Source: a virus. From it: DNA of 64,000 nt. Under the pieces are notes generated by a model. The model did not search any database. It was not told the DNA's origin and saw only the letters and a list, made by a program, of their open reading frames with translations. Within the stretch, counting starts at the first letter, position 1, and each line of letters starts with the position of its first letter. The DNA is taken from positions 1-64,000 of the IMG/VR virus record IMGVR_UViG_3300021963_000054. One strand, written 5' to 3'. Shown here in pieces: positions 4,488 to 13,556 of this stretch. Made by a program: the position numbers and the translations under genes.

Positions 4488-5202
4488 GTGTATTCAATCC
4501 GTTGATAGTCAAACATATGATGATTTGACGCATTATGTTTTCATGGATGGAATGCAATACTGGAAAGAAATTGATGATATCATTGAAGGTTCTGAAAAAG
4601 TCCGTGTAATAAAAATTGAAGAAAACGTCGGTAAAGGATGGTACGGTCATCGTGTTTACTCGGCGTGTTCATTTTTGGTGAATGCTGATGTAATCATTTA
4701 CCTTGATGAAGATAATTGGATTGATCCGTGTCACGTTGAAAAACTTGTTAAAGTTATACAAAAGGGAAATGATTGGGCATATAGCCTTAGAAAGATTTAC
4801 GATAAAGATGAAAAATTACTATGCGAAGACAATTGCGAAAGTCTTGGAAAATGGCCTGTTTTCTTTGACGAGAAAGTTAACCACATTGATACTTCCAGCT
4901 TTGCTATTAAGCGTGATATTGCTGTTCGCATTGGTCACGCATGGTATGGGCAGTGGGGCGCTGATAGACAATTTTATCAAGCACTATCAACCCATTTTCC
5001 CAATTACGATTGCACCAATGCACACACCTTATGCTATCGCTTAGATGGTAATCCGAATTCTGTGAAAGCAGATTTCTTTGAGAGTGGTAATGCTATCAAT
5101 GCGACAAAATATAATGGAAGTTTCCCATGGAAAATAAACAAATTGCTAAAAATAGAACCGCGCTCATTACCGGTGGGTCAGGTTATCTCGGTTCGCACCT
5201 AA
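4438..5202 (+). CDS. Family 2-type glycosyltransferase
   Basis: 254 codons. The N-terminus MKVAVITPTIGTKYLSKCIQ is the nucleotide-sugar-binding strand and loop of GT-A fold glycosyltransferases, and YLDEDNW (about residues 88-94) is the metal-binding DxD-type motif. Later FAIKRDIAVRIG and GADRQFYQAL fit the acceptor half. The ATG at 4438 sits five bases after AAGGA; an ATG at 4432 is in frame but overlaps that site. It likely transfers a sugar to phage or host surface glycan or to DNA; the acceptor cannot be told from sequence. It overlaps the GalE-like gene by 76 bases. Confidence 0.85.
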   Translation: MKVAVITPTIGTKYLSKCIQSVDSQTYDDLTHYVFMDGMQYWKEIDDIIEGSEKVRVIKIEENVGKGWYGHRVYSACSFLVNADVIIYLDEDNWIDPCHVEKLVKVIQKGNDWAYSLRKIYDKDEKLLCEDNCESLGKWPVFFDEKVNHIDTSSFAIKRDIAVRIGHAWYGQWGADRQFYQALSTHFPNYDCTNAHTLCYRLDGNPNSVKADFFESGNAINATKYNGSFPWKINKLLKIEPRSLPVGQVISVRT

Positions 5203-6095
5203 GCAAAAAACTAAAGCAACAAGGATGGAAAGTAATTATCCTTGATAGAAAGATGGGTCCCACACATCCTTACGTGGATGCATTTTATTGTGGCGATGTT
5301 CGGAATAGATTTCTCTTAGAAGATATTTTCAAAAACAATTTAATTGATATTGTATTTCACTTAGCTGGTCGGATTGAAGTTGGCGAATCAGTAAATAATC
5401 CTACCGAATTCTGGGAAGTCAATGTTGGCGGAACAGTCGCTGTTCTAAATGCCACGAGTAAATTTGGTGTGAATAAGATTGTTTTTTCATCCACTGCTGG
5501 AGTTTACTGGGCAGGTGCTATGGAAATACCAGAAGATGAATGCACCACAAGTAATAATCCTTACAGCAATAGTAAAATGTCTTGTGAGTATGCCATTGAA
5601 GATTCTGGTTTGAAATATGTAATTTTTAGGTATTTCAATCTGGCTGGCGCTGATCCAGATGGAGAAATGGGTGAGTGCCATGAACCGGAAACACATCTAA
5701 TTCCCAGAATTCTACAAAATCTAAATACGGTTGAAGTGTATGGAAATGACTATGACACACCAGATGGAACATGCGTTAGGGATTACGTCCACGTTTGTGA
5801 TGTTGTTGACGCACACTTGGAAGCGATAAAATATCTTGACAATTCTGGTGAATCTGGAGTTTTTAATCTAGGTTCAGGAGTTGGCTATAGTGTTCTTGAT
5901 ATTATAAAAACAGTTAAAAAAGTAACAAATAAAAAAGTAAATTATACCATAATGCCAAGGAGAGAAGGCGATCCAAGTCATTTGGTCGCTGATATCACCA
6001 AAGCAAAAACCATTTTGAATTTTAATCCAAAACATGATATATCATCCATCGTCAAATCGGCCTATGAGTGGGAAGAGATTAGGTCAATCACCTGA
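5127..6095 (+). CDS. NAD-dependent sugar epimerase (GalE-like)
   Basis: 322 codons, extended short-chain dehydrogenase family. GGSGYLG at residues 16-22 binds NAD; a Ser-Ser-Thr element near residue 120 and Tyr146-X3-Lys150 form the catalytic set; GTCVRDYVHVCDV is the C-terminal signature typical of UDP-glucose 4-epimerases. Length matches GalE. The expected reaction is UDP-glucose/UDP-galactose interconversion (or an N-acetyl or uronic equivalent), supplying substrate to the overlapping glycosyltransferase. The 76-base overlap with that gene and 32-base overlap with the protease gene suggest coupled translation. Exact substrate is unproven. Confidence 0.9.
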   Translation: MENKQIAKNRTALITGGSGYLGSHLSKKLKQQGWKVIILDRKMGPTHPYVDAFYCGDVRNRFLLEDIFKNNLIDIVFHLAGRIEVGESVNNPTEFWEVNVGGTVAVLNATSKFGVNKIVFSSTAGVYWAGAMEIPEDECTTSNNPYSNSKMSCEYAIEDSGLKYVIFRYFNLAGADPDGEMGECHEPETHLIPRILQNLNTVEVYGNDYDTPDGTCVRDYVHVCDVVDAHLEAIKYLDNSGESGVFNLGSGVGYSVLDIIKTVKKVTNKKVNYTIMPRREGDPSHLVADITKAKTILNFNPKHDISSIVKSAYEWEEIRSIT

Positions 6096-6648
6096 AGATA
6101 TTCCATTCAACGTTCAAGATAAGTTTGACAATGTATTTCTTGACAACCATATCTTTTTCTTGAGCGGTGAAATAAATGAAGAAAACATCCTCAAAGCAAC
6201 ACAATGGTTAGTCTATGAAAATGCTTACCATGATCCAGAAAAACTTTTACAGTTGTATATCAATTCTACGGGCGGTGATTTGTATCAAGCACTTGGTCTA
6301 ATTGATATGATGCGTATTAGCAAAAATAGAATCCGAACAATCGGTGTTGGTGCTGTTATGTCGGCTGCATTCCTAATCTTTGCATCCGGTGAAAAGGGCG
6401 AAAGATTAATTTCCAAAAATTGTAGTATCATGTGTCACCAGTATTCTGATACCTACGAGGGAAAGCACCACGACTTAAAGTCATTCACAAAAGAGGCTGA
6501 ATTGACTAATCAAAGAATGTTGAATATACTTCAAGAGGCTACGGGCATGAGCGCACGTAATGTTAAGACCAAACTTTTATCACCTAGCGATGTTTGGTTG
6601 ACTGCTGATGAAGTTATTAAGCTAGGTGTAGCTGACCGCATTCTTTAA
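6064..6648 (+). CDS. clpP: ClpP-like serine protease
   Basis: 194 codons from the ATG at 6064 (in-frame ATG 6034 would add ten residues; neither has a strong ribosome site). The full ClpP catalytic triad can be aligned: Ser100 in GAVMSAAFL, His125 in MCHQYSD, Asp176 in SPSDVWLTADE, plus the NSTGGDLYQALGLIDMM handle region. This is the fold of the proteolytic ring that works with AAA+ unfoldases. The phage copy may be fed by host ClpX/ClpA or work alone; no phage unfoldase is adjacent. It overlaps the epimerase gene. Confidence 0.88.
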   Translation: MSGKRLGQSPEDIPFNVQDKFDNVFLDNHIFFLSGEINEENILKATQWLVYENAYHDPEKLLQLYINSTGGDLYQALGLIDMMRISKNRIRTIGVGAVMSAAFLIFASGEKGERLISKNCSIMCHQYSDTYEGKHHDLKSFTKEAELTNQRMLNILQEATGMSARNVKTKLLSPSDVWLTADEVIKLGVADRIL

Positions 6649-11890: not shown

Positions 11891-12568
11891 ATGTTTACCT
11901 ATTGCCCACCTAAGAAACTTGAAGACTTAAAATCAGAAACACTAGAGAACGGAAGATTTTATGTGACGCCAGATGGTAAGAGATTGCCATCTGTAACAAC
12001 AGTCTTGGGCGCAATGGGTAAGAAAGCCATCTATGAATGGCGCCAGCGTGTTGGTGCAGAGGAAGCAAATCGTATATCACGAATTGCATCTGGGCGTGGT
12101 ACACGTATGCATACGCTATGCGAAAAGTATTTGAATAATCAAGACATAGGTAAACCGATGCCCGATGCTTTGGAATTGTTTAGAAAAGTAAAGCCGTATC
12201 TAAATAAAATCAACAACATTCATTATCAAGAATGTGCATTGTGGTCAACAAAACTTGGCATGGCTGGGCGTGTAGATTGTATCGCAGAATATGATGGTGT
12301 TCTTTCTGTCATTGATTTTAAGACTTCGGCTAGAGTGAAAACAAGAGAAGATATTCCTGCATATTTTGCTCAATGTACCGCTTATGCATTGATGTATGAA
12401 GAATTGATTGGTGTAAGAATTGACCAAATAGTTGTTATCATGGCAGTTCAAGAAGATAACCCAATCATCTTTGTTGAGCCGATGAGAAAACATATAAATA
12501 CTTTACTAGAGTATATTAGTTTTTACCGAAAACAAAATGAAAAGAACAATTATTACCCGACAAACTAG
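11891..12568 (+). CDS. PD-(D/E)XK-type exonuclease
   Basis: 225 codons. GRVDCIAEYDGVLSVIDFKT (about residues 125-145) contains the catalytic Asp and D-X-K of the PD-(D/E)XK (RecB/Cas4-like) superfamily, and the RMHTLCEKYL helix near residue 75 is the usual upstream Glu-containing element. The N-terminal PSVTTVLGAMGKKAIYEWR matches phage exonucleases next to phoH in T4-like aquatic phages. Likely role: host DNA degradation or recombination. Its 3' end overlaps the -35 element of the tmRNA promoter. Confidence 0.83.
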   Translation: MFTYCPPKKLEDLKSETLENGRFYVTPDGKRLPSVTTVLGAMGKKAIYEWRQRVGAEEANRISRIASGRGTRMHTLCEKYLNNQDIGKPMPDALELFRKVKPYLNKINNIHYQECALWSTKLGMAGRVDCIAEYDGVLSVIDFKTSARVKTREDIPAYFAQCTAYALMYEELIGVRIDQIVVIMAVQEDNPIIFVEPMRKHINTLLEYISFYRKQNEKNNYYPTN

Positions 12569-12585
12569 TTTTGTTGTGTTATAAT
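12557..12585 (+). promoter_or_regulatory. Promoter of the split tmRNA
   Basis: A weak -35 (CCGACA, 12557-12562), 17-base spacer and consensus TATAAT (12580-12585). Transcription is expected near 12592, at the 5' end of the acceptor piece. Confidence 0.72.
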
Positions 12586-12591
12586 TAGTGT

Positions 12592-12656
12592 TATTGCTGT
12601 ATGAAGCAAAGAGAAAAGTGTCCTGGACGGGGGTGCGAATCCCCCCACCTCCACCA
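12592..12656 (+). ncRNA. ssrA: tmRNA acceptor piece (3' half, encoded first)
   Basis: The T arm is GGGGG (12629-12633), loop TGCGAAT, CCCCC (12641-12645). The acceptor strand CACCTCC (12646-12652) is followed by an encoded ACCA. This strand pairs over all seven positions with GGGGGTG at the start of the coding piece (12828-12834), leaving G3-U70, the alanine identity pair. TGTCCTG (12619-12625) pairs with CAGGGCA of the coding piece to form helix 2. A tRNA is excluded because no D or anticodon arm precedes the T arm. The order acceptor-first, coding-second is that of circularly permuted two-piece tmRNAs. The 5' boundary is inferred from the promoter. Confidence 0.88.
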
Positions 12657-12667
12657 TAAGGATTTAA

Positions 12668-12826
12668 GTGGATAATAAACTTAAAGAATTGCAGGAAAAC
12701 TTAGCTAAAGATTTAGTTAAGTGTGAAGCCCGTGAGGGAATAACATTAACTGAAGAAAATTTAGAAAAGATTTCCGATGCTTATTCAAAAGTTTATGATA
12801 TCATTACTGAGATAAAATCTTTATGA
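12668..12826 (+). CDS. 52-residue ORF inside the tmRNA intervening segment
   Basis: GTG start at 12668, with AAGGA six bases before it; TGA at 12824-12826, two bases before the first G of the coding piece. The product begins MDNKLKELQENLAKDLVKCE and continues EGITLTEENLEKISDAYSKV: helical and mostly polar, no membrane segment. The ORF occupies nearly the whole spacer (12657-12827) that must be removed from the precursor. Translation would compete with tmRNA maturation or occur on the excised spacer. No family recognised; coding is supported by start, ribosome site and fit, not by homology. Confidence 0.6.
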   Translation: MDNKLKELQENLAKDLVKCEAREGITLTEENLEKISDAYSKVYDIITEIKSL

Positions 12827-12827
12827 T

Positions 12828-12995
12828 GGGGGTGACCTAGATTCGACAGGGCAACAAGTACATGCGTGGACAGCACGGTAGGCGATGACCGTAAATCAAG
12901 CAAAAAACGTAAATGCAAATGACGAAAGTTTTGCTTTAGCGGCCTAAACGCCGCTTAGGGTTTCGGTAGGTTTCCTCGTAACAGAATAACCTACC
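12828..12995 (+). ncRNA. ssrA: tmRNA coding piece (5' half with proteolysis tag)
   Basis: It starts GGGGGTGACC and has the conserved TAGATTCGACAGG D-loop-like segment of tmRNA. ACGGT/ACCGT around 12876-12891 forms a PK1-like stem. The resume codon GCA (12915-12917) opens the tag A-N-D-E-S-F-A-L-A-A with TAA at 12945-12947, close to betaproteobacterial ANDERFALAA. GCGGC (12939-12943) pairs with GCCGC (12950-12954) around the stop, as in helix 5. A further stem GGTAGGT (12965-12971)/ACCTACC (12989-12995) marks the likely 3' end. The molecule should rescue stalled ribosomes and tag products for ClpXP-type proteolysis. 3' end approximate. Confidence 0.9.
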
Positions 12996-13019
12996 AATAT
13001 TTTAACAAGGAGTTTTATT

Positions 13020-13556
13020 TTGAAGAAAATCGCAATCGCAAGTTTAATTGCTATCGCCGCTACAGTACAAGCTGGTGGTTTTGTTTCGTATGGTGTTGAC
13101 CAAGTTACTGACCGAGTAAGCAACCAACAAAGTATCGCACAGTATGTCCGTGCTGGTACTACGTTAGGTGGTTTCAATCTTGGCTTGCAAAATCGCAATG
13201 CTCGTACTAATGACAATCTCTCCATGTACAATAGTTTGGAACTTACCGCTGGTAAAACAGTTTTTGGTATTAACCCATTCGTTGGCGTTGGTTTTGATAA
13301 TGGTGGCGCTGGTGCAAAGCCATATGAATATGGTCTAGTCGGCGCAAACGCTGGAGTTAAAGTTGGTCCTGGTTATGCCATGGCTGGTGCTAAGACCCGT
13401 GTAAATTGGGATAGCGCAAATCCAAAACAATCTGTAGTATTTGCTAGTTACGACATGCCAGTCATCAGCAAAGTATCTGTTGGTGTTGGTGTTAGCCAAA
13501 GCTATCAAGATATTCAAGACCGTGCGGTCGGACTTACAGTCTCAGTAGGATTCTAA
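13020..13556 (+). CDS. Outer-membrane beta-barrel protein with signal peptide
   Basis: 178 codons from a TTG start seven bases after AAGGAG (13007-13012). Residues 1-18 (MKKIAIASLIAIAATVQA) form a signal peptide with an A-x-A-type cleavage site. The mature part alternates Gly/aromatic-rich strands (GGFNLGLQ, FGINPFVGVGF, YEYGLVGANAGVKVG, KVSVGVGVSQSY) and ends in LTVSVGF: a terminal Phe is the usual beta-barrel assembly signal. The product is expected in the host outer membrane. It follows the tmRNA with no visible promoter of its own, so it may share that transcript. Possible roles are superinfection exclusion or altered permeability (inference). Confidence 0.78.
   Translation: MKKIAIASLIAIAATVQAGGFVSYGVDQVTDRVSNQQSIAQYVRAGTTLGGFNLGLQNRNARTNDNLSMYNSLELTAGKTVFGINPFVGVGFDNGGAGAKPYEYGLVGANAGVKVGPGYAMAGAKTRVNWDSANPKQSVVFASYDMPVISKVSVGVGVSQSYQDIQDRAVGLTVSVGF

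Follow-up and report, generated by a model that had tools for sequence, protein, structure and literature searches.

Circularly permuted, two-piece tmRNAs have already been described in phages, including T4-like ones. Buchholz et al. (PMC9004378) reported a two-piece tmRNA in the T4-like Methylophilales phage Melnitz, also mentioned Pelagibacter phage Mosig, and counted 53 two-piece tmRNAs in 18,146 phage genomes, with 50 of the 53 coming from marine or aquatic samples. The Mosig tmRNA is annotated as SsrA, and our DNA search located further examples in cultured Stenotrophomonas menderaviruses, in Xanthomonas phages, and in a freshwater Synechococcus phage. A preliminary description of the locus studied here had held that no permuted tmRNA was described in a T4-like phage, which is wrong in view of Melnitz, Mosig, and the annotated menderavirus tmRNAs. 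So far, the permuted tmRNA has been regarded as an RNA gene whose spacer is simply discarded. Extra content in the spacer position has been reported in one case each as a tRNA-Ala gene and as a repeat (PMC11915505), but these are an RNA gene and a repeat rather than protein genes. The same paper describes a group I intron tmRNA with a homing-endonuclease gene, which resembles our locus in having a protein gene within the removed part of a tmRNA gene; however, the insert there is a T-loop intron that splices itself out, whereas ours lies between the permuted gene ends. We found no report of a protein gene in a permuted tmRNA spacer in the openly licensed papers, and PMC11915505 mentions none. 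Relative to that literature, what appears from the sequence to be new at our locus is the spacer protein gene and not the presence of a permuted tmRNA in a T4-like phage.

The locus lies in a 64-kb window (the whole stretch of 64,000 nucleotides that we analyzed), which belongs to a virus record of 104,951 bases. Its carrier had been taken for a T4-like phage, and PHROGs matches to T4-type structural and replication genes (phrog_213, 138, 2, 23, 168, 77, 224, and 269) bear this out, with genes for the portal, major head protein, terminase, and sheath, along with gp44- (clamp loader), gp46-, gp32-, and gp59-like genes. No tRNA genes were found in the virus record, nor was an SmpB gene, so host SmpB would be needed. 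As in Mosig, the tmRNA is located between a PD-(D/E)XK nuclease (43% identity) and gp59 (31% identity) plus gp32, in the same order; the exonuclease gene is directly upstream (11891 to 12568, plus strand), and gp59 and gp32 follow 3.5 to 5 kb downstream. Comparison with Mosig did not confirm a gp33 gene adjoining the tmRNA.

ARAGORN calls a permuted tmRNA with the tag ANDESFALAA at 12564 to 13038, and two Rfam models match the region above their cut-offs, namely RF04321 (tmRNA_permuted; 12595 to 12947, 138.8 bits, E 3.7e-27, cut-off 47) and RF01850 (beta_tmRNA; 12556 to 13004, 115.2 bits, E 2.4e-34, cut-off 84). Together, ARAGORN and the two models give an extent of 12595 to 12995, with the acceptor piece encoded 5' of the coding piece; this and all other tmRNA parts below are on the plus strand. 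The acceptor (tRNA-like 3') piece at 12595 to 12656, whose 5' end we take from the Rfam match, holds one strand of helix 2 (12595 to 12600), the T arm (12629 to 12645), which is continuous, an acceptor strand (12646 to 12652), and an encoded ACCA (12653 to 12656) that supplies the CCA end. The coding (mRNA-like) piece at 12828 to 12995 contains the other acceptor strand (12828 to 12834), the other strand of helix 2 (12870 to 12875), the tag reading frame with its TAA (12915 to 12947; ARAGORN and Rfam), and a 3' hairpin (12965 to 12995). Between the pieces is an intervening sequence of 171 nt (12657 to 12827) that is absent from the mature tmRNA, and an Rfam scan showed no group I intron in the tmRNA gene. 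In the acceptor stem, CACCTCC-ACCA (12646 to 12656) faces GGGGGTG with seven of seven pairs, including G3-U70, while TGCTGT and ACAGCA join both pieces as helix 2.

Relatives of this tmRNA vary in ways that preserve both helices. In three of them (L025, L030, and L038), the acceptor stem reads CAGGTCC/GGGCCTG; these two compensatory changes, in strands that lie more than 140 nt apart, show that the stem is a maintained structure. In helix 2, the paired strands change together (GCTGT/ACAGC, GTTGT/ACAAC, and ACTGT/ACAGT), and the helix averages 5.85 of 6 pairs compared to 5.23 (maximum 5.58) when its strands are re-paired among sequences. The preliminary description had proposed a permuted tmRNA with this tag at 12592 to 12995, a seven-pair acceptor stem with G3-U70, and helix 2, and had suggested a covariance search with Rfam models; the tool calls, the sequence, and the changes in relatives confirm all of these features. 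Its coordinates stand, but it overlooked the protein gene between the halves as well as a promoter-like site just upstream. The latter is a sigma-70-like promoter at 12557 to 12585 on the plus strand (CCGACA-17-TATAAT with TG before the -10, 10 of 12 consensus matches); the region has about as many promoter-like sites as expected by chance, but this one is kept in close relatives.

Compared to described relatives, the tmRNA is betaproteobacterial in type and its gene is unusually long. While the Melnitz tmRNA is alphaproteobacterial in type (PMC9004378), the best clade model here is the betaproteobacterial permuted form (RF01850), with which the tag type is also shared, although the 3' part of the phage tmRNA is shorter. 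Betaproteobacterial cell tmRNAs are 55-66% identical to the phage mature core, and the closest permuted ones (65-66%) belong to Burkholderiales genomes of 1.9-2.3 Mb. On the other hand, full matches in the 15 Burkholderiales genomes above the cut-off extend over 323-345 nt compared to 449 here, and the cell spacers are short and without a gene (5-42 nt in sixteen parsable cell sequences). Across 398 Pseudomonadota genomes, a gene span of more than 282 was seen in 3 of about 137 strong matches, compared to 353 here. One cell genome (G465, locus L571) has a permuted tmRNA match spanning 332 nt, with a long spacer that contains hairpin-like repeats. Among phages, the menderaviruses Marzo, Yut2, and Bhz51, which are cultured phages of about 160 kb with T4-type genes, also carry a permuted tmRNA, but it lies within a tRNA cluster and its spacer of 56-57 nt has no ORF. 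The spacer of Mosig, at 44 nt, likewise differs from ours in lacking a gene, although its sequence ends pair as they do here.

The spacer at our locus contains a 52-aa gene on the plus strand (12668 to 12826), which starts with GTG just downstream of an AAGGA (12658 to 12662) and stops with a TGA (12824 to 12826) that ends one base before the coding piece. A total of 39 viral contigs encode homologues of the protein, either within a tmRNA intervening sequence or as stand-alone genes, and at three loci (L028, L029, and L044) the homologue immediately precedes a permuted tmRNA. The nested copies differ from one another mostly by synonymous substitutions (pN/pS 0.27 over 36 pairs). The stand-alone copies are without the C-terminal tail KSL of the nested ones. 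Structure prediction gives a two-helix hairpin (pLDDT 76, pTM 0.42, only a fair model), and we found nothing significant for the protein in Pfam (best E 0.03), in PHROGs, or by tblastn of the phage collection. A chance ORF is ruled out by shuffles that keep the spacer ends, by the homologues, and by the codon pattern. Judging from these comparisons, the 171 nt that would be discarded at tmRNA maturation hold a conserved protein gene. We also observed a tandem arrangement in L026 (1464 to 2000) and L027, where degenerate tmRNA halves surround the 52-aa ORF and a second permuted tmRNA comes after them; this looks like duplication and decay.

To put the nested gene in context, we searched viral contigs using two T-arm/CCA patterns, neither of which depends on spacer length, and obtained at least 110 non-redundant permuted tmRNAs. 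The fractions that follow cover these two acceptor patterns and the matches listed, and are not population frequencies. We counted a spacer as filled when one ORF covered at least 80% of the intervening sequence, and obtained expected values from shuffles that kept the first 14 and last 11 spacer bases. Among the matches listed, ORFs filled 24 of 56 non-redundant spacers of at least 80 nt (1.9 expected) and 12 of 15 of those of at least 130 nt (0.3 expected), and below 80 nt they were not above chance. In 18 of the 24 filled spacers listed, the stop was a TGA one base from the coding piece. BLAST clustering placed the nested ORFs of all loci in at least 31 families, of which a few singletons may have arisen by chance. 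They include a thioredoxin (PF00085, E 4e-21), a CxxCxxCC domain, the 52-aa family, and hydrophobic miniproteins that resemble single membrane helices. At L416, a complete thioredoxin-like gene of 84 codons is found inside the permuted tmRNA spacer. All examples of nested genes come from uncultivated metagenomic contigs; the cultured phages with permuted tmRNA that we inspected had no convincing nested ORF, and tblastn of named phages with two other nested families gave no match.

The spacer ends also pair with one another. At our locus, the head of the spacer (12657 to 12663), which holds the AAGGA Shine-Dalgarno sequence, forms seven of seven pairs with 12817 to 12823, within a tail (12817 to 12827, both on the plus strand) that comprises the last codons of the nested gene and TGAT and faces the head and ACCA. 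Among the matches listed, the first seven bases of the spacer form a mean of 6.44 of 7 pairs with the bases before the final TGAT, compared to 4.28 when heads and tails are re-paired among sequences (maximum 4.68 in 2000 trials), and this excess shows that the precursor has a helix prolonging the acceptor stem. A terminal TGAT was seen in 72 of the listed spacers in all, including 49 of the 73 without a filling ORF, and also in four parsed cell sequences. Since both the helix and TGAT occur with or without a nested ORF, the simplest reading is that the helix is older and that nested genes later adopted its UGA as a stop codon and its AAGGA side as a ribosome-binding site. For the window sequence, the predicted open fraction of the Shine-Dalgarno is 0.2% for the precursor and 5% for the free spacer RNA. 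With the spacer ends paired as an extension of the acceptor stem, the nested Shine-Dalgarno would therefore be locked against the gene's own last codons in the predicted precursor helix.

Together, these findings make it probable that the locus is a working permuted tmRNA that doubles as a nested-gene cassette with coupled output, for which we infer expression, processing, and coupling. Host RNA polymerase would transcribe one precursor from the promoter at 12557 to 12585, as its consensus matches suggest. In this precursor, as the covariation shows, the paired spacer ends extend the acceptor stem. By analogy with known permuted tmRNAs, RNase P would cut before G12828 and tRNA 3' processing would occur after CCA12656, and the resulting RNAs of about 62 and 170 nt would remain base-paired and join host SmpB. 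The two-piece tmRNA would then rescue stalled ribosomes in infection and add ANDESFALAA for host proteases, a role that is supported by the intact and conserved tag. The pre-existing UGAU of the helix, which is also seen in genes without an ORF, may have become the stop codon of the nested gene. The 52-aa protein, a predicted helical hairpin, could be made either on the growing precursor, while its helix is still open, or on the spacer once this has been cut out. Since the Shine-Dalgarno is paired in the precursor and mostly paired in the free spacer, translation would be favored on nascent RNA that does not yet include the second half; release by processing alone may not open the site because the free spacer RNA still folds over it. 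With its Shine-Dalgarno held in the precursor helix, the nested gene would depend for its output on tmRNA transcription and processing; conversely, a ribosome translating it would hold back the folding of the acceptor stem.

This coupled reading differs only in the step of nested-protein translation and coupling from one in which the tmRNA is normal and the spacer is a tolerated landing site for small genes, read as part of one transcript with no regulatory coupling. We give such a neutral arrangement a little less than an even chance. It would account for the very diverse, unrelated proteins in the slot, for a 52-aa family that also stands alone, and for a helix that forms irrespective of an ORF, but it leaves unexplained why the Shine-Dalgarno and the last codons are within the paired ends, why the in-frame stop is usually the TGA of the helix, and why the tail KSL is present in nested copies and missing from stand-alone ones.

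The tag bears on two further alternatives. Among close relatives, the pattern AND[ES][SQ]FALAA is kept (ANDESFALAA, ANDEQFALAA, and ANDSQFALAA) while the coding halves diverge. An intact tag frame of host type that is kept under divergence argues against a phage RNA that would prevent rescue by competition with host tmRNA or SmpB; we regard such interference as improbable, although the tag-less tmRNA of phage DS6A does inhibit endogenous tmRNA in E. coli (PMC11915505). A non-functional relic captured from the host is very improbable given the complete helices with compensatory changes, the intact tag, and the many independent copies, despite the degenerate halves in the L026/L027 relative and the pick-up of tmRNA fragments by phages discussed in PMC9004378. 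Three loci (L030, L038, and L032) have altered tag ends, ANDEKFRIAA, ANDSRFLMAA, and ANDSQFSIAA in place of ALAA, which could change the protease that reads the tag.

As for the host, the preliminary description had suggested comparing the tag with tmRNAs of candidate hosts. ANDESFALAA is common and widespread in betaproteobacteria, mostly in one-piece tmRNAs. Almost every genome checked for the tag (Paraburkholderia, Aquabacterium, and others) had a standard, one-piece tmRNA, so the tag is not host-diagnostic. The ClpP homologue noted upstream is real (6034 to 6648, plus strand; PF00574, 116 bits); by eye, the Ser and His of its triad seem to be kept, while the Asp is not obvious. Since a separate head maturation protease is present elsewhere in the record, the ClpP-family protein is probably not the head protease, and it is possibly unrelated to the tmRNA. 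Adjoining it is an NAD-dependent epimerase/dehydratase gene (5127 to 6095), possibly involved in sugar modification.

In seven loci of the survey (L206, L241, L247, L252, L235, L236, and L250), the nested frame has no stop and stays open to the RNase P site. On this sequence, the message remaining after maturation would be a nonstop one, on which tmRNA itself naturally acts. A broader proposal, which we consider rather unlikely as it stands, is that in aquatic phages the permuted tmRNA serves as a standing regulated slot for nested genes, with the helix as a translation switch and arfA-like feedback in the no-stop subset. If true, the helix would both hide the Shine-Dalgarno and give the stop codon, coupling ribosome rescue to the nested protein, and in the no-stop loci maturation would produce a nonstop mRNA that is a substrate of the very tmRNA it freed.

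If the spacers of permuted tmRNAs are regularly phage protein genes, then standard annotation would miss or mask many small phage proteins, and tmRNA processing would become a step in phage gene expression. It would also offer a possible reason why phages keep permuted tmRNAs, in that one short transcript would give both a rescue RNA and a protein tied to RNA folding.
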